Shown piece by piece: positions 696-20,641 of a DNA stretch of 64,000 nucleotides; positions within the stretch are counted from its first letter, which is position 1; every line of letters starts with the position of its first letter. A program made the translations under genes and the position numbers. Source of the DNA: Desulfobacter postgatei 2ac9 (GTDB lineage Bacteria > Desulfobacterota > Desulfobacteria > Desulfobacterales > Desulfobacteraceae); contig NZ_CM001488.1 of assembly GCF_000233695.2 (NCBI RefSeq), forward strand, positions 3,315,453 through 3,379,452, given 5' to 3'. The notes beneath the pieces were generated by a model, which worked only from the letters and a program-made list of their open reading frames with translations, was not told the DNA's origin and did no database searches.

Positions 696-772
<77 letters not shown>

Positions 773-11557: not shown

Positions 11558-12097
11558 TTATGAAATTTCGGTCCGACTCCCTGGATCAAGTTGGGCCTTG
11601 ATCTCTAGTGCCGCGGCTTTCGGAGTGTATTTTTCGGTGTCAATCGAGACACCCGCAAGCTCCTGGTACAAGGGGGTTCTGATTTCAAGCATTTTTTCTG
11701 TTTCAAGGGAAAGGCTGTCACGGGTTAAATCCGGTCTTCGGTCAGTGTTGTTTTCATCTTTGCTGATTCTGTCCGTCAGAACGGATGCTGTGGCATAAAG
11801 ATATACAACAATCCCGTTTTCTTTTAAAAACTGTCTGTTTTCTTCTGCAAGGATGATCCCCCCGCCCGTAGCTATGACGGGTGAATTCTTCAAATCCAGA
11901 TTCATAAGTGTTTGAGTTTCTTTTGCCCTGAAATAGGCCCAGCCGTGCCGGCCCACCATCTGTGCAATGGTTGTACCGTAAGTTGATTCCAAAACCAGAT
12001 CCGTATCCAGAAACGTTTTATTCAAAAGATCGGCAAGGTACTTTCCGGTACTGGTTTTGCCGGTACACCGGTATCCGATAAGAAAAATGGGACCCAT
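11558..12097 (-). CDS. aroK: Shikimate kinase
   Basis: Phosphorylates shikimate with ATP, the fifth step to chorismate. The 179-residue P-loop kinase shows Walker A G-Y-R-C-T-G-K-T near residue 7, the shikimate-binding D-T-D near 33, R-x-K near 59, the G-G-G segment near 80 and the lid T-D-R-R-P-D near 118. The ATG follows AAGGAGG by 4 bases. The last eight codons (P-G-S-R-T-E-I-S) are encoded by a GGGAGTCGGACC element that recurs near 28.57 kb, so the C-terminus may have been rewritten by a repeat. It is the last biosynthetic gene of the pheA-aroE-aroA-aroK run. Confidence 0.94.
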   Translation of the reverse strand: MGPIFLIGYRCTGKTSTGKYLADLLNKTFLDTDLVLESTYGTTIAQMVGRHGWAYFRAKETQTLMNLDLKNSPVIATGGGIILAEENRQFLKENGIVVYLYATASVLTDRISKDENNTDRRPDLTRDSLSLETEKMLEIRTPLYQELAGVSIDTEKYTPKAAALEIKAQLDPGSRTEIS

Positions 12098-12109: not shown

Positions 12110-13366
12110 TTAGAGGGCGTCAAAAAGCTGCCAAAATGTGGGAAATGATTTCTCCACGCACACGGGATTTTCAATTTTAATATCGTCCACCCTAAGACCG
12201 GCAACCGCAAAGGCCATGGCAATGCGGTGGTCGTTAAAGGTTTCAATGAGTGCGCCATGGGGTGTGCCCCCCGTAATTTCCATAAAATCCGGTCCCTGCA
12301 CCGCTTTAATTCCCATTTTTGTGAGCTGGGAACAAACCGCATCAATGCGGTCGCACTCCTTGACCCGAAGATGTCCAATATTACGAATCCGGGTGGTGCC
12401 TTCGGCAAACGCGGCTGTTACAGCCACAGCAGGCACGGCATCGGGGGTATCGGACATATCCACATCCACGCCGTGCAGGGGATGGCCCTTTACCCGCAGG
12501 ACCCGGCCATCATGATTTACCGTACAGCCCATCTTCTCAAATATATATGCCTGTTTCAGATCGCCCTGCAAAGAGGCTGTGCCGATATTATCCACCCCGA
12601 TATCCGCACCTGTTACAGCCCCTGCTGCCCAAAAATAGCCGGCATTGGAAAGATCCGGCTCCACGGTTCTGCTTCCGGATGAGTAAGTCTGGCCCCCCGG
12701 GACCTCATAGCAGGTGTCGGATACCTGGAAGGCATTGACCCCAAACTGCTTCATCACATCCAAAGTCAAATCAATATATGGCTGGGACACGGCAGGCCCT
12801 GTCAAATCAATCACGAGGCCCTGATCAAAAAAAGCACCGGCCATGAGCAGGGCGGACAGGTACTGGCTTGACCTGGAGCAGTCAAGAAGCGTTCGCCCCC
12901 CTGCCCTGTCACCGCCCTGGATCACTACCGGCGGTGTACCTTCATTGTTTTGGGAAGCCGCACTGATCCGGATACGGCCAAGAGCGTCTAAAAGCTCTCC
13001 CATGGGGCGTTGACGCATGCGCTCATCCCCGGTCAGAGTATATGGGGTGCTGCCAAGGGCGGCAATGCCTGCTAAAAGGCGCATGGACGTGCCTGAGTTA
13101 CCAAGGTGGATGGGATCCGGCCAGGGTTTGGGCCTGCCGCCGAAACCTGTAACCGACAGGGTACCGTCTTGTCTGCTTTCGATTTGAGCCCCCATACACT
13201 CCAGGGTTTTGCGGGTAAGAGAAATATCCTGGCTGTCGAGCACATTATAAATTTGAGATATGCCGTCGGCCAGCGCGGCACAGATCAACATCCTGTGTGA
13301 AATGCTCTTGGAACCCGGAATTTTGACCACCTGGTCATGGATCTTTCTGGAAATTACCAGTTTCAT
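12110..13366 (-). CDS. aroA: 3-phosphoshikimate 1-carboxyvinyltransferase (EPSP synthase)
   Basis: Joins shikimate 3-phosphate and phosphoenolpyruvate to give EPSP. 418 residues, normal for the family. Signature segments are I-P-G-S-K-S-I-S-H-R near residue 16, L-G-N-S-G-T-S-M-R near 87 (the PEP-binding block) and N-D-H-R-I-A-M-A near 385. The N-S-G-T-S-M-R form, with Ser after Thr, is a variant of the more common N-A-G-T-A-x-R block. AAAGGAG lies before the ATG. It sits between aroE and aroK in the aromatic operon with gaps of about 12-15 bases. Confidence 0.95.
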   Translation of the reverse strand: MKLVISRKIHDQVVKIPGSKSISHRMLICAALADGISQIYNVLDSQDISLTRKTLECMGAQIESRQDGTLSVTGFGGRPKPWPDPIHLGNSGTSMRLLAGIAALGSTPYTLTGDERMRQRPMGELLDALGRIRISAASQNNEGTPPVVIQGGDRAGGRTLLDCSRSSQYLSALLMAGAFFDQGLVIDLTGPAVSQPYIDLTLDVMKQFGVNAFQVSDTCYEVPGGQTYSSGSRTVEPDLSNAGYFWAAGAVTGADIGVDNIGTASLQGDLKQAYIFEKMGCTVNHDGRVLRVKGHPLHGVDVDMSDTPDAVPAVAVTAAFAEGTTRIRNIGHLRVKECDRIDAVCSQLTKMGIKAVQGPDFMEITGGTPHGALIETFNDHRIAMAFAVAGLRVDDIKIENPVCVEKSFPTFWQLFDAL

Positions 13367-13381: not shown

Positions 13382-14182
13382 TCAGTCGTTAATAATGGTG
13401 TTTCGCATCAGATCCGTATCAGGGATTATACCTGTCCATAATTCAAACTGGGCGGCTGCCTGGGCAATGAACATGGACAGGCCGTCAATGGTTGTGCAGC
13501 CCTTTTGTTCTGCAGCTTCAAGCAGCCGGGTTCTCAACGGGGTATATACCACATCCATTACCACCATTTCCGATCTTAATGCTTCGGGCGGAAAGCTGAT
13601 TTCATTCTCTTTGGGTGTCATGCCGATGCTTGTGGTGTTGATAATCACATCCGCCTGGATATTTTCCATCTCTTCGGCAGGTATAAACCGAGCATTAACC
13701 GTCTCAGCAAGGGCCCGGCCTTTTTGTTCCGTCCGATTGGTGATGATGATATCCCCATTTTGGGCTTCAATACCGTGGGCCACGGCCCGGGCTGCCCCGC
13801 CTGCACCCACAATACAGACGGTTTTTCCTGAAATGCCAAAGGGGACAAGAGGCGCAACAGCGGCTTGACAATCGGTATTATATCCTTTTAATACGCCGTT
13901 TTCATTCACTATAGTGTTTACGGCACCAATGGCCCGGGCTGTGGGATCGATCCAGTCAATATGTTCCATGATGGATTCCTTGAAAGGAATGGTTACGGAA
14001 GCTCCCTTGATATCGAGCGTACGCACAGCCTGTGCCGCTCCTGCCGCATCCTGCACCTCAAAAGCAAGGTAAACGGCATTGATGTCCTTATCTTTAAACG
14101 CTGCATTATGAATCACAGGACCTTTAGAGTGCCTGGCAGGATTGCCGAATAGACAATATAGCCGGGTGGCAGCGTCAATCAT
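13382..14182 (-). CDS. aroE: Shikimate dehydrogenase
   Basis: Reduces 3-dehydroshikimate with NADPH. The 266-residue protein has the substrate domain G-N-P-A-R-H-S-K-G-P near residue 13, V-T-I-P-F-K-E near 63 with the catalytic Lys, and N-T-D near 104. The Rossmann motif G-A-G-G-A-A-R near 128 is followed by N-T-T-S-I-G-M near 188. The first position after the conserved H-S is Lys instead of the usual Leu/Lys-Ser pair, which is a small change. The ATG overlaps the pheA stop (ATGA), so translation is coupled to pheA. Confidence 0.94.
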   Translation of the reverse strand: MIDAATRLYCLFGNPARHSKGPVIHNAAFKDKDINAVYLAFEVQDAAGAAQAVRTLDIKGASVTIPFKESIMEHIDWIDPTARAIGAVNTIVNENGVLKGYNTDCQAAVAPLVPFGISGKTVCIVGAGGAARAVAHGIEAQNGDIIITNRTEQKGRALAETVNARFIPAEEMENIQADVIINTTSIGMTPKENEISFPPEALRSEMVVMDVVYTPLRTRLLEAAEQKGCTTIDGLSMFIAQAAAQFELWTGIIPDTDLMRNTIIND

Positions 14183-15318
14183 TGTAATATCTCCTGTTTT
14201 TCAAAAATCGGGTACGACCCCAGCACCTTTAAATACAGGGCCTGGCTTCGAATCTGTTCAATGGTTTGAAATACGATTTCATCCTGGATATGCCCTTCAA
14301 TATCCATGAAAAAATGATAGCTCCAGTTATAGTGACGCGTGGGTCTGGATTCAAGTTTAACCATGTTCAGGCCGGATCTGTTCACAGGCGAAAGCGCCCT
14401 GAAAAGTGCGCCCGGGGTGTGGTTCGTGGCAAACATAATAGATGTTTTATCATTCCCTGTTCTCTCCGGACGATCACCCCCAATCACAAGGAACCGCGTA
14501 ATATTTCCGGCACGATCCTGTATTTTTGATGCCACCGGCAGCAGGTTATAAAAATGTGCTGCTTTGCCGGATGCAATGGCGGCAATCTGTTCATCCTTCG
14601 AGGCCAGAAGAGCCGCATTTGATGTGGAGCTGGTCTCCATGACTATGGCATGGGGCAGATGTTTCTTCAACCAGTTTTTGCACTGGGCAATGGCCTGGGG
14701 ATGGGAATAAACGGTTTTAACGTCTTTGAGTTCCCCTGTAATGGATAACAGATCATGGGAAACAGGCTCATAATGCTCTGCCGTAATTTCAAGATCAAAC
14801 TCGGCAAAAAGATCAAGGGTATAGTTGACAGCCCCTTCAATGGAGTTTTCAACGGGAACAATGCCGAAATGCAGCTCTTTTCGCTCGATATTGTTGAAAA
14901 TATCAAAAAAACCGGCTTGTTCTACAAATTCCCCGCAGTGGTTGAAATAATGAAGGGCGGCAATATGGGAATGGCTGGCAAGGGGCCCTAAATAACCAAT
15001 GGTCTTAGGCTTCTGGATTTCCCGTGTAGCCGTGATGATCACATTGAAAATATACTGAATCAGGCTTTCGTCCGCAGGGCCGGGGTTCAGCCGGGAAAGC
15101 CGCTCAATCACCATGCGTTCCCGGGTTCGATCCAGAATTTGACTGCCTTTTTGTTTTTTAATCTCCCCTACTTTTTTGCCGATCTCAAGGCGCTGATTGA
15201 TCAGTTCAAGAATGCGCTCATCAATACGGTCAATTTCGCCACGAAGCGGAGACAGGGGCGAAGAATCATCTTCTGCCTGCTTTTGATTGTCCTTGTCTTT
15301 AATCTCATGGTCAGTCAT
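14179..15318 (-). CDS. pheA: Bifunctional chorismate mutase / prephenate dehydratase
   Basis: Converts chorismate to prephenate and then to phenylpyruvate. A 10-codon longer frame starts at a TTG (15348), but AAGGAAA stands 7 bases before the ATG at 15318, which I prefer (379 residues). An AroQ-type mutase helix bundle covers about residues 25-105. The dehydratase follows, with G-Y-L-G-P-L-A-S near 110 and V-E-N-S-I-E-G-A-V near 160. A C-terminal ACT domain includes the Phe-binding E-S-R-P near 320, indicating feedback inhibition by phenylalanine. It is headed by a Phe-rich leader ORF and terminator, so transcription is also probably attenuated. Confidence 0.95.
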   Translation of the reverse strand: MTDHEIKDKDNQKQAEDDSSPLSPLRGEIDRIDERILELINQRLEIGKKVGEIKKQKGSQILDRTRERMVIERLSRLNPGPADESLIQYIFNVIITATREIQKPKTIGYLGPLASHSHIAALHYFNHCGEFVEQAGFFDIFNNIERKELHFGIVPVENSIEGAVNYTLDLFAEFDLEITAEHYEPVSHDLLSITGELKDVKTVYSHPQAIAQCKNWLKKHLPHAIVMETSSTSNAALLASKDEQIAAIASGKAAHFYNLLPVASKIQDRAGNITRFLVIGGDRPERTGNDKTSIMFATNHTPGALFRALSPVNRSGLNMVKLESRPTRHYNWSYHFFMDIEGHIQDEIVFQTIEQIRSQALYLKVLGSYPIFEKQEILQ

Positions 15319-15349: not shown

Positions 15350-15386
15350 TAAAAAAACCGCCTCAGGTTTTGCCTGCTGCGGTTTT
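15350..15386 (-). terminator. Attenuator terminator hairpin upstream of pheA
   Basis: On the minus strand AAAACCGC pairs with GCGGTTTT, with an inner CAGG/CCTG stem, and a run of T follows directly. It lies between the leader ORF stop (15416) and the pheA start (15318). The 5' arm contains GCAGGC (15372-15377), which is complementary to GCCTGC (15430-15435) inside the end of the leader ORF. Two alternative structures are therefore possible, as in the phe, trp and his attenuators of enteric bacteria. Confidence 0.82.
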
Positions 15387-15415
15387 AGTGATTTAGTTAA
15401 AATTTATGGGAAAAA

Positions 15416-15493
15416 TCAGTTGTCCACAGGCAGGCTGTCCTTTCTATAAAATCGAGTGCTAAAATAAAAATTTTTGCTGAAGCTAAAGATCAT
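15416..15493 (-). CDS. pheL: Phe leader peptide (25 aa) of the pheA-aroE-aroA-aroK operon
   Basis: A 25-codon ORF with a ribosome site (GGGGAG about 12 bases before ATG 15493). Phe is at positions 3, 5, 9, 11 and 15, and Tyr at 10 and 16, so 7 of the first 16 residues are aromatic; in a random short ORF this is very unlikely. The sequence begins M-I-F-S-F-S and ends V-D-N. It is followed by the attenuator hairpin and then pheA. By analogy with E. coli pheL, ribosomes stalling at Phe codons when charged tRNA-Phe is scarce would prevent the terminator from forming. The arrangement is seen directly; the regulation is inferred. Confidence 0.85.
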   Translation of the reverse strand: MIFSFSKNFYFSTRFYRKDSLPVDN

Positions 15494-15509: not shown

Positions 15510-16340
15510 TTATATTTTTTTAAGACCATATACGTTGGATCTGTTTCTGTCAATAGATTCAGACTCAATCTCCAGGCCAATCGCATGTAAACATATCCTG
15601 GAAATTAATGGGTTGGGTGCTATACCCACAAACGGAACACACCCAAAATGTTTAAAAACAATGGGAGAAGCGGACCGAACGGCGGCAGCAACAATTTTGC
15701 CGGGTTCGGGGCGCCATTGGAAAAACTGCCACATGGGGTCGGCCCGACCGGTATCACGGAAGGTGATTTGAATGCCAGTTTCATTTACATTAAATGAAAA
15801 ACTGTTTAGAGGGATGGATAATCCCTTGCCAACCGCCTTGATATAGGCCTCTTTCAAAGTCCAGATATCAAAAAACAGCTTTCGTTTTTCAGCCTCTGGT
15901 GCCTGTGAGACAAGCGCTGCCTCACAAGAAGAAAAAAAGCGTTTGGCAATGGAAAAATCCGTGTGCCGCCCCACATCTTCCACATCCACACCCACGGCAG
16001 CATTCCGGCACAGGGCGCAGACTGCCACACCATGGCTATGGGAAAGGTTAAAATGCATATCCGGCAATTCAGCAAGAAAGGGTTTGCCATGTTCATTAAC
16101 CGAAAAGTTAAGGGATCGCGGATCCTGTCGGGTCGTTTCGGCGATCAAATAGCGCAATAGGGCCCTGGACACCAGGCTGAGGTGCCGGTCTGATTGTTTC
16201 ATATACCGATCCGCCTTCCGGATTTCAGGGGGGGAAAGACAGGCCCTGTATTGTTCTAAAAGACAGGGATCTGATATCCGGTCTGCCCGGGTGTAGTATA
16301 CATAAACATGACCGGAATCCGGAGAAGGCGGTTTTTTCAT
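15510..16340 (-). CDS. 4'-phosphopantetheinyl transferase (Sfp/Gsp type)
   Basis: Transfers phosphopantetheine from CoA to carrier proteins. Motifs are V-G-V-D-V-E-D near residue 110 (Mg-binding Asp and Glu) and W-T-L-K-E-A-Y-I-K-A-V-G-K-G-L near 160. These are the signature of the Sfp superfamily. I place the start at 16340 (M-K-K-P-P-S, 276 residues). A longer frame begins at 16436 with 32 extra residues of low similarity to the family, and neither start has a strong ribosome site. The stop lies 17 bases before the Phe leader ORF, so the leader promoter may lie inside this gene, or the two may be cotranscribed. Confidence 0.85.
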   Translation of the reverse strand: MKKPPSPDSGHVYVYYTRADRISDPCLLEQYRACLSPPEIRKADRYMKQSDRHLSLVSRALLRYLIAETTRQDPRSLNFSVNEHGKPFLAELPDMHFNLSHSHGVAVCALCRNAAVGVDVEDVGRHTDFSIAKRFFSSCEAALVSQAPEAEKRKLFFDIWTLKEAYIKAVGKGLSIPLNSFSFNVNETGIQITFRDTGRADPMWQFFQWRPEPGKIVAAAVRSASPIVFKHFGCVPFVGIAPNPLISRICLHAIGLEIESESIDRNRSNVYGLKKI

Positions 16341-18934: not shown

Positions 18935-20641
18935 TCAGCTCAGAGCAGCAATAACGCCTGCAAACAGCAAGGGGAACTCGAACCAGAACTCATAAAAGTT
19001 GGCGGAAAGATCTCTGTCAATTTTATACCGTAAGGTCAATATAAGCATGAAAGCCGGTATAAGGGCAAGGCCGCAGACGGCAGGAGAGACCCAAACGGTT
19101 AAAATTAAAGGAATAATAATTGCGGCCACAAGGGTGTAACGAACAAATTTTAGGCTCTTCTTTTTGCCCAGAAGGATGGGAAGCGTTTCCCGGCCTGCAA
19201 TCCTGTCACCCTGAACAGCCAGGATATCCATAAAGGTGGTCCTGGCAAACGAAAGCACTGTGGCAAACACAAAGGCCACCAGGGTCAGGCCGGGGTTTGC
19301 CTTAAGGCTGATCCCGGGCATCAGGCTTGTAACAATACCCCATGCCGCTGCAATCAGAATGGTCTTTGACCCGGGAACATCCTTGATCCGGTACATTTTT
19401 CGTCCGGAGAAAAAGGAGGGGACAATGGTGCGGGTGTAGGACATGCCTAACAGCATCATGATGAGCAGCATGCTAAAATACCCCCATCCCCTTGTCCATG
19501 CCAGGTAAAGCCCGGCCGCACCGGACAGGAACGCCACAAGCAAAAGCCATTGCTTGTTTCGCTTATAAAGGGCTGCCCGGTCAGGTTTGTTGTAGGTATC
19601 GGCCCCGATGGTCATCATGTTGTTCATGATCTGCATGGACAGGATATAAAACATGGCAATGACCGCTGGTACACCAGGATTTTGTGCGCCGGAAATCATG
19701 GCTGTCCCCAGGGTCAGGCAACCTGCGCCTGCGGCCAGAATCATGTTGGTTTTCATCAGCACATCCAGCACGGCCATAACTTTTTTTAGCCCGGGCCGTT
19801 TCTCTCTCAAGGCCTGTTCCACCCTGCTGCAGGTATCATTGATGATCCAGTTGGGCGTTGAAGCGCCTGCGGTAATGGCAATGGATTGTACATGGGAAAT
19901 GGATGCATAATCGATTTCCGATGCCTGTTCAATGTGCATGGACGGTTTACCGGTTTCAGCGGCTACCTGGGCAAGGCGCTTTGTATTTCCGGAAAATTTT
20001 CCCCCCACAACAATAACGGCATCATGGGTAACGGCCATTTCCCGGACCTCATTCTGCCGTTTTTCCGTGGAATCGCAGATGGTATTAAAAATTTCGTAAT
20101 GGGGGGTATTGGTACTGCACCACTCCTTGATCTGCGCAAAAATCTTGGTGTTCTGCGTGGTTTGGGCCACGACCACAGCCTTTTCAAACCTGGGAAGTGA
20201 TTTAAGCTGATCCAGATTGGTGATGGTATGTCCTTTCCCCCGGGCATATCCCAGAAGGCCGATAACCTCCGGATGCTTTTCATCCCCAAGGATAATGGTG
20301 TCGTAACCTTTTTTTGAATATTTATCGATGATCACCTGGACCCTTACCACCCGGGGACAAGTGGCGTTCAGCACAGTGAATCCCGCATCAGCCAGGGCCT
20401 TTTCATCTTCGGGCGGCACCCCGTGGGCCCGGATGAGTACGATGCCTTTTCCGGATTCGGGAATCGTATCCATCCTAAAAATCTGTTTGCTTTCGAGCAT
20501 CTCCAGGACCTGGGGATTATGGATTAAAGGCCCATAGGTATAAATCGGTTCCTTGGCCTCATTGGATGCATCCAGTACCATGTCCACGGCCCGACGGACA
20601 CCCATACAAAAACCTGCGGTTTTAGCAATTGAAATTTTCAT
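18935..20641 (-). CDS. ispH: IspH (HMBPP reductase) fused to a UbiA-type prenyltransferase domain
   Basis: 568 residues in one frame. Residues 1-280 are a complete IspH: the cluster cysteines C12, C95 and C189, and the substrate residues H41, H73, H123 and E125, are all present. IspH makes IPP and DMAPP from HMBPP, the last step of the MEP pathway. Residues 290-568 form about eight membrane helices with UbiA-superfamily marks: A-D-T-Y-N-K-P-D at 347-354 in place of motif I, and M-D-I-L-x-V-Q-G-D-R-x-x-G-x-x-T-L-P near 480 as motif II. The second domain would make this a membrane-bound enzyme attaching prenyl chains to an unknown acceptor. Its ATG overlaps the parB stop by 4 bases. Confidence 0.9.
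   Translation of the reverse strand: MKISIAKTAGFCMGVRRAVDMVLDASNEAKEPIYTYGPLIHNPQVLEMLESKQIFRMDTIPESGKGIVLIRAHGVPPEDEKALADAGFTVLNATCPRVVRVQVIIDKYSKKGYDTIILGDEKHPEVIGLLGYARGKGHTITNLDQLKSLPRFEKAVVVAQTTQNTKIFAQIKEWCSTNTPHYEIFNTICDSTEKRQNEVREMAVTHDAVIVVGGKFSGNTKRLAQVAAETGKPSMHIEQASEIDYASISHVQSIAITAGASTPNWIINDTCSRVEQALREKRPGLKKVMAVLDVLMKTNMILAAGAGCLTLGTAMISGAQNPGVPAVIAMFYILSMQIMNNMMTIGADTYNKPDRAALYKRNKQWLLLVAFLSGAAGLYLAWTRGWGYFSMLLIMMLLGMSYTRTIVPSFFSGRKMYRIKDVPGSKTILIAAAWGIVTSLMPGISLKANPGLTLVAFVFATVLSFARTTFMDILAVQGDRIAGRETLPILLGKKKSLKFVRYTLVAAIIIPLILTVWVSPAVCGLALIPAFMLILTLRYKIDRDLSANFYEFWFEFPLLFAGVIAALS

Follow-up and report, generated by a model that had tools for sequence, protein, structure and literature searches.

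A predicted Phe/Tyr leader-peptide attenuator ahead of pheA-aroE-aroA-aroK in Desulfobacter postgatei and the distribution of related leaders in its order

The window analysed here, a 64-kb stretch of the genome of Desulfobacter postgatei 2ac9, carries on its minus strand a run of four aromatic-pathway genes, which a first-pass annotation had named pheA-aroE-aroA-aroK and whose naming is borne out by Pfam and NCBIfam (Table 1). The four genes presumably form a single transcript. They are preceded by a short open reading frame (ORF), whose ATG is located 175 nt upstream of the pheA start and whose 3' end lies 97 nt ahead of that gene. The upstream neighbour, a phosphopantetheinyl-transferase gene on the same strand, ends 16 nt ahead of the leader ATG. 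Phe is encoded at codons 3, 5, 9, 11 and 15 and Tyr at codons 10 and 16, and the earlier description of a 25-codon ORF with five Phe and two Tyr codons among its first 16 is thus exact on the minus strand. The ribosome site that had been claimed is found as a candidate GGGG, but at 12 nt from the ATG, a spacing above the ideal. The ORF is regarded as a candidate gene, probably translated. The probable sigma-70 promoter overlaps the end of the phosphopantetheinyl-transferase gene; promoter-like sites are not enriched in the leader region (4 versus 3.6 in shuffles), and 12 of the 15 Desulfobacter leaders inspected have a TTGACA box at most 90 nt from the ATG. Elsewhere in the window, positions 18935-20641 of the minus strand encode an IspH (LytB) protein fused to a UbiA-type prenyltransferase domain, and a tRNA gene (699-772, minus strand) is the only Rfam match at threshold.

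Table 1. Predicted features of the leader region and the genes behind it, in window coordinates
Feature	Position	Strand	Details
Probable sigma-70 promoter	15525..15553	(-)	TTGACA 15553-15548, 17 nt, TATGGT 15530-15525; 10/12 consensus positions
Leader ORF (candidate), encodes MIFSFSKNFYFSTRFYRKDSLPVDN*	15416..15493	(-)	ATG 15493, TGA 15418-15416; 25 codons
Region 2, GCCTGCCTGTGG	15424..15435	(-)	antiterminator 5' strand, within the last third of the leader ORF
Region 3, CCGCAGCAGGC	15372..15382	(-)	strand common to antiterminator and terminator
Intrinsic terminator (3:4), AAAACCGCAGCAGGCAAAACCTGAGGCGGTTTTTTT	15351..15386	(-)	stem -17.1 kcal/mol; arms AAAACCGC..CAGG-CAAAA-CCTG..GCGGTTTT, followed by a U tract
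pheA, first gene under control (predicted)	14179..15318	(-)	chorismate mutase + prephenate dehydratase + ACT; ATG 15318; Pfam, NCBIfam
aroE, shikimate dehydrogenase	13382..14182	(-)	Pfam, NCBIfam
aroA, EPSP synthase	12110..13366	(-)	Pfam, NCBIfam
aroK/aroL-type shikimate kinase	11558..12097	(-)	Pfam, NCBIfam

The terminator hairpin previously placed after the leader ORF is present. A consensus terminator scan of the window did not list this hairpin (15386-15351), probably because of the mismatches within its stem. The GCAGGC/GCCTGC pairing proposed in the first-pass annotation is also found, as part of a longer helix than described: the antiterminator joins GCCTGC[C]TGTGG (15435-15424) with region 3 (15382-15372) over 11 bp with one bulge. 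The window leader has in addition an alternative hairpin between codons 15-16 and CTGTGGA, and its region 1 is degenerate, other leaders having CAGGCAGA at that place. The leader is unique in the window as an ORF of 16-35 codons that has 7 or more Phe/Tyr codons in the first 16 and a T-run hairpin (-11 kcal/mol or better) after it; another ORF with such codons has no terminator, and the combination of ORF and terminator arose in 0 of 60 order-2 Markov resamplings of the window. The fold of the 191-nt leader has a z score of -2.57, with 4 of 200 shuffles equally good.

A match to pheA was found in 39 of the 40 genomes searched, the window's own included, and 30 pheA loci were taken for inspection. 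The leader lies directly upstream of pheA in 22 of them, again counting the window's own genome: 18 of the 19 members of the genus Desulfobacter and representatives of four further genera of the family (L020-L023). The nineteenth genus member (G017) has both leader and terminator too, but an insertion of about 1.5 kb parts them from pheA; it carries the gene (L081, 1456-2694) for a 413-residue RRXRR-HNH protein, presumably IscB-like from its domain content. The leader at this locus carries Cys instead of Phe5 and Ser instead of Pro22. The remaining seven loci (L024-L030) have no leader directly upstream of pheA. Six of these are order-level loci; five (G025, G030, G034, G037, G039) have a related leader about 2 kb upstream, heading a longer operon, and the match in the sixth genome (G033) is unplaced.

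The codons were compared one by one in the 15 Desulfobacter leaders of the 25-codon type, with four of another type set aside. Invariant codons are Phe11, Phe15 and Tyr16; Phe3 and Tyr10 show synonymous change only, and Phe5 and Phe9 are missing in two and one of the 15, respectively. Region 2 (GCCTGCCTGTGG) is read in differing frames, as AGC CTG CCT GTG G in L001 and GCC TGC CTG TGG in L016; because its RNA is conserved while the reading frame differs by leader type, it is the pairing, and not the peptide, that appears to be kept there. An antiterminator duplex is predicted in all 22 pheA leaders, at -16.6 to -25.9 kcal/mol, and 97.7% of antiterminator cells and 93.9% of terminator cells in these leaders are paired. 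Compensatory changes occur in 4 of the 12 terminator pairs (6 cells versus 0.7 in shuffles), and two-sided changes in the antiterminator amount to 4 cells versus 0.7, all in one of its 10 pairs, a one-pair level also reached by 281 of 500 shuffles; the structures scored were in both cases drawn from the very alignments tested. As an outcome that would refute the attenuator reading, the first-pass annotation had named a lack of leader-codon conservation in relatives that keep pheA. This outcome was not observed: 22 of the 30 loci retain the Phe/Tyr tract and both hairpins directly ahead of pheA. The covariation supports terminator and antiterminator alike, and the reading is regarded as supported.

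With a covariance model built on the 22 pheA leaders (R1), matches were obtained in 65 of 86 family genomes and in 94 of the 291 genomes of an order draw, which also contained members of the family. Apart from the 22, 132 of these matches were read in context, 19 further listed ones (1 + 18) being left unread. In 130 of the 132, the first gene recognised with seven reference proteins was that of a DAHP synthase, an ADTH synthase or pheA, and in 128 of these it lay no more than 250 bases away, L102 (385 bases) and the displaced leader of L081 (1535 bases) being the exceptions; the other two matches are cut short by the end of a contig (L125) and by a stretch of N (L172). The scope given to the leader in the first-pass annotation, a pheA leader, holds as described but proves too narrow, as the group also precedes DAHP synthase and other amino-acid genes. 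A typical leader ahead of a DAHP synthase, MTIRKTDSYYFYFWYYFYTGLPVLR, is found in the window's own genome (G000:C1:1047721-1047868), and one ahead of an operon for ADTH synthase, DHQ synthase II, pheA, aroE and aroA is MTHKFSGKYFSYYWYFYNTGLPEVR (L139). R1 had no match in 21 of the 86 family genomes, 13 of which belong to one genus (g26); nine g26 genomes are listed with matches to a second model, R2, and the three g26 loci read (L258, L260, L264) precede a DAHP synthase gene. One genome (G023) matched neither model.

R2 matched, at E 0.001 or better, 248 of 291 genomes of a class draw, a minority of the matches having been read and the weak ones being mixed; these comprise 186 of 200 high-quality genomes and 114 of 123 genera, and all the class-draw genomes listed belong to the window's order, 23 without a match being outside the list. 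In a phylum draw it matched 158 of 395 genomes, again with a minority of matches read and the weak ones mixed; some weak matches show no plausible leader (L271, L292). Convincing leaders were found there in other families ahead of DAHP synthases (L228, L231, L235, L238), with further ones ahead of type I-beta DAHP synthases as judged by eye (L239, L242, L243) and ahead of a gene matching shikimate kinase (L237, L246, L250). Only 1 of 22 comparison genomes was matched by R2, a set unmatched for base composition that covers beta- and gamma-proteobacteria, Verrucomicrobia, Nitrospinaceae and four relatives of Geobacter and Desulfuromonas. Among the best 80 of 589 named pheA loci, 13 were matched with E below 1e-5, all upstream and on the pheA strand, including those of Desulfobacter latus, Desulfocicer vacuolatum and Desulfosarcina cetonica, and several of the 13 come from genomes already counted, so that this set is not independent; the other 67 gave weak matches at most (E 0.013 or worse).

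An alignment of 82 chosen leaders (A2; 43 ahead of DAHP synthase, 36 ahead of ADTH synthase, two ahead of pheA and one unplaced) displays the classical four-strand layout, with region 1 (CAGGCAGA) and region 2 (TCTGCCTG) flanking the control codons, a small GGTA:TACC hairpin inside, and region 3 pairing with either region 2 or region 4. The protector helix (1:2) is paired in 84.9% of cells over the 82 leaders. Compensatory change was found in 13 of 21 pairs of protector, loop hairpin and terminator together (98 cells versus 32.4 in shuffles) and in 7 of 10 antiterminator pairs (16 versus 6.2), cell counts that 0 of 500 shuffles reached for either set of structures, bearing in mind that related sequences can beat shuffles without any structure and that the structures were drawn from the same alignment. 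When the pairing partners were slid, the 88.6% pairing dropped to no more than 41.8% and the 90.2% pairing to no more than 47.8%.

The codon content of the leaders varies with the gene that follows. Where a genome has both a pheA and a DAHP-synthase leader (30 genomes), the pheA leader shows the higher Phe share of Phe plus Tyr codons in 27, an equal one in one and a lower one in two. Through weak R2 matches, leaders with other codons were found ahead of several more genes. In the window's own genome, a Tyr-rich leader, MVANQIYYYCGYCPYPAAVVLLS, with its terminator precedes tyrS, a gene confirmed by NCBIfam (L278, G000:C1:1371151-1371326, minus strand), and a Leu/Val/Ile leader, MINFTSRLLVLLLIEEVVLNTSGRRGS, also with a terminator, precedes a 2-isopropylmalate-synthase-like gene that scores below the family cut-offs (L279, G000:C1:360213-360389, minus strand). 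Similar tyrS leaders with GTG or TTG starts occur in G007, G013 and G015. As judged by eye, Ile/Leu/Val leaders lie ahead of ilvD or ilvB in G015, G074 and G055, and a leader with three consecutive Trp codons (WWW) precedes a trpE-like gene in G039. A Phe-rich leader ending in RSVHPV precedes a 622-residue fusion of DAHP synthase, prephenate dehydratase and ACT domains (L280:677-2542), the domains having been checked in G018 only and the DAHP synthase part by the type I-beta model; similar fusions were seen by eye in G016, G007, G055, G074 and G079 (L281, L286, L288, L289, L293), the leader of the G016 fusion containing several Tyr codons besides Phe. Phe-rich leaders also precede paaK, for phenylacetate-CoA ligase, and the gene of a paired-ACT protein, as checked in G039 and judged by eye in G075 (L287, L294), which would suggest salvage of phenylacetate into phenylalanine. 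Homology of these other-codon leaders to that of the window is not claimed; for several, the resemblance hardly goes further than the presence of a terminator and an AT-rich ORF. Two more ORFs were noted: one with a run of eight Tyr codons some 300 nt ahead of an acetate-CoA-ligase-like gene (NDP-forming type, below family cut-offs; L297, G589), and an Ala-rich one, MITIAAARAISAAANNAAGVTSAR, followed by a terminator and, by eye, an aminotransferase-like ORF (L378; G769, an Oryzomonas sp. MAG, the genome of L321).

Trp codons are frequent in the tract of the leaders preceding ADTH synthase (29 of 40 distinct leaders; at least one leader in 15 of 19 families) and DAHP synthase (26 of 66; 10 of 12 families). 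When all distinct leaders are pooled without regard to relatedness, 7 of 39 pheA leaders contain Trp, compared with 55 of the 106 others (Fisher p 0.0003); within the family the difference is weak (7/40 pheA, 14/49 DAHP synthase), and the TGG codon sits in the conserved GG of the loop hairpin in 30 of 45 ADTH-synthase, 22 of 57 DAHP-synthase and 7 of 18 pheA leaders. For these two reasons Trp sensing, which is possible judging from the codons, is not claimed.

Taken with the predicted folds, these observations indicate, with a probability of roughly 90%, that the window leader is a ribosome-mediated transcription attenuator. As the leader is transcribed, a ribosome would follow the RNA polymerase. 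With charged Phe-tRNA available, and probably Tyr-tRNA too, the ribosome would reach the stop codon and mask region 2, leaving region 3 free to pair with region 4, and transcription would stop near 15351. Were charged tRNA scarce, the ribosome would stall at codons 9-16 with region 2 just beyond its front edge; regions 2 and 3 would pair, no terminator would form and pheA-aroE-aroA-aroK would be transcribed. The charging of tRNA is the likely signal in such a scheme, to which the Tyr codons probably contribute.

The switch was modelled by folding the transcript cut before region 4 with the ribosome footprint blocked. In the window leader, the predicted probability that region 3 is held by the leader is 0.66-0.67 for A-sites from codon 4 to Tyr16 and declines to 0.41 at Arg17, 0.05 at Lys18 and 0.00-0.01 at codons 19-24, with 0.11 at codon 25 and the stop, which places the switch immediately behind the last control codon. 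Averaged across 154 leaders, the probability is about 0.6 when the stop is still 14 or more codons away and 0.21 once it is reached, and 74 of the 154 combine a value above 0.5 at a control codon with one below 0.2 at the stop. The terminators for this calculation were chosen by an automatic procedure, and the one for L023, and perhaps those for others, differs from the conserved hairpin. In full-length equilibrium folds, the terminator is favoured at every ribosome position for the window leader and for 3 of 5 further leaders inspected (L061, L139, L023); a working switch would therefore have to be kinetic. Of the features that define an attenuator, an ORF rich in codons for the end product and a terminator between ORF and first gene are seen directly at this locus; an exclusive antiterminator, freed by stalling and masked at the stop, emerges from the cut-transcript folding and not from the full-length fold of the window leader.

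Folded without a ribosome, the window leader gives a predicted 0.66 antitermination, despite the hairpin of codons 15-16 with CTGTGGA. In classical attenuators, by contrast, a leader that is not translated brings about termination. A protector function is therefore doubtful in this leader, and its predicted behaviour without translation is uncertain. Poor translation alone could then switch the operon on, and attenuation might answer a general slow-down of translation or of its initiation instead of Phe/Tyr charging specifically. We consider this unlikely, given that most pheA leaders (27 of 30) exceed the DAHP-synthase leader from their own genome in Phe share, that Tyr-rich leaders precede tyrS and that the WWW leader precedes a trpE-like gene. 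Considerably less probable still is a riboswitch, a T-box or a protein-bound leader, with direct sensing of Phe or tRNA and an ORF of no consequence. All of these classes have a terminator/antiterminator pair, and there are sub-threshold Rfam scores for the trpB motif (24.3 bits where 59 are needed; E 0.24) and, in L020, for His_leader (32.5 where 49 are needed); yet a direct sensor would not need codon identity to track the following gene, and region 2 shifts its frame between leaders while the Phe/Tyr codons stay. Rfam returned no family but tRNA at threshold in the window and 11 loci, leader, T-box and riboswitch families included, and riboswitches and T-boxes were set aside on that absence. 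The trpB motif, which parts of one source describe as a motif of Firmicutes and Fusobacteria (PMC11109978), was rejected for a score far below threshold. That the hairpin merely terminates the phosphopantetheinyl-transferase gene and the ORF is noise, a reading favoured by the closeness of that gene on the same strand, is the most improbable of all and was dropped, as leader and hairpin persist beside other upstream coding sequence in L010, L011 and L015 (by eye), a plain terminator needs neither a short Phe/Tyr-rich ORF nor an antiterminator, and the resamplings never produced ORF and terminator together.

Ribosome-mediated attenuation is known from the pheL-pheA and trpL systems of Escherichia coli and other enterics. 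Like pheL, the Desulfobacter leader is Phe-rich, precedes a chorismate mutase-prephenate dehydratase gene and has a strand common to terminator and antiterminator, a mechanism that is summarised for pheL-pheA in part of PMC11802643; it differs in its Tyr codons, in the shikimate genes after pheA and in the related leaders on other genes. The likeness to pheL is one of description; no Rfam leader family, the phenylalanine leader included, reaches threshold here. Neshat et al. (2014) reportedly described the AroR leader before aroF in Corynebacterium glutamicum. Its Phe-Tyr-Phe leader before this DAHP-synthase gene, as given in parts of PMC11802643 and PMC4046766, resembles the DAHP-synthase leaders found here. 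Compared by description, the latter belong to another phylum, have longer Phe/Tyr runs and often contain a Trp codon. The ilvGMEDA and thr leaders of enterics are multivalent, with codons for several end products. Many ADTH-synthase and DAHP-synthase leaders likewise combine Phe, Tyr and Trp, here for aromatic amino acids and on different operons. Attenuators in proteobacteria are said to have been surveyed by Vitreschak et al. (2004). Among open-licence papers judged by title and the start of the abstract, no report of such leaders in these bacteria was found; the accessible part of the main text of Naville and Gautheret 2010 (PMC2965389) contains no mention of Desulf-, pheA or aroF, nor does that of an Actinobacteria survey (PMC1262725) mention aroF or aroG.

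The proposed mechanism is of a known type, and what may be new, no report having been found among the open-licence papers, is the distribution of these leaders in the order of Desulfobacter. One ancestral leader RNA with Phe, Tyr and Trp codons may head the aromatic pathway of this order, ahead of either the ADTH synthase-DHQ synthase II-pheA operon or a DAHP synthase, and changes of codon may have adapted copies of it to single branches, as in the Phe-rich leaders of pheA; if the other-codon leaders are added, those before tyrS, trpE, paaK, the DAHP synthase-prephenate dehydratase fusion and ilv or leuA-like genes, much of amino-acid synthesis might then be under leader-peptide attenuation. 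Judged from the sequences, the odds of this broader picture are about even. With these leaders, the range of leader-peptide control over aromatic synthesis would come to include an order of sulfate reducers; the leaders also hint at the functions of the genes behind them. Related leaders whose codon content varies with the gene behind also constitute a natural experiment, which makes it testable how many codons are needed for each aromatic amino acid, whether a lone Trp codon among those for Phe and Tyr is read, and what re-tuning a leader undergoes once its operon splits.
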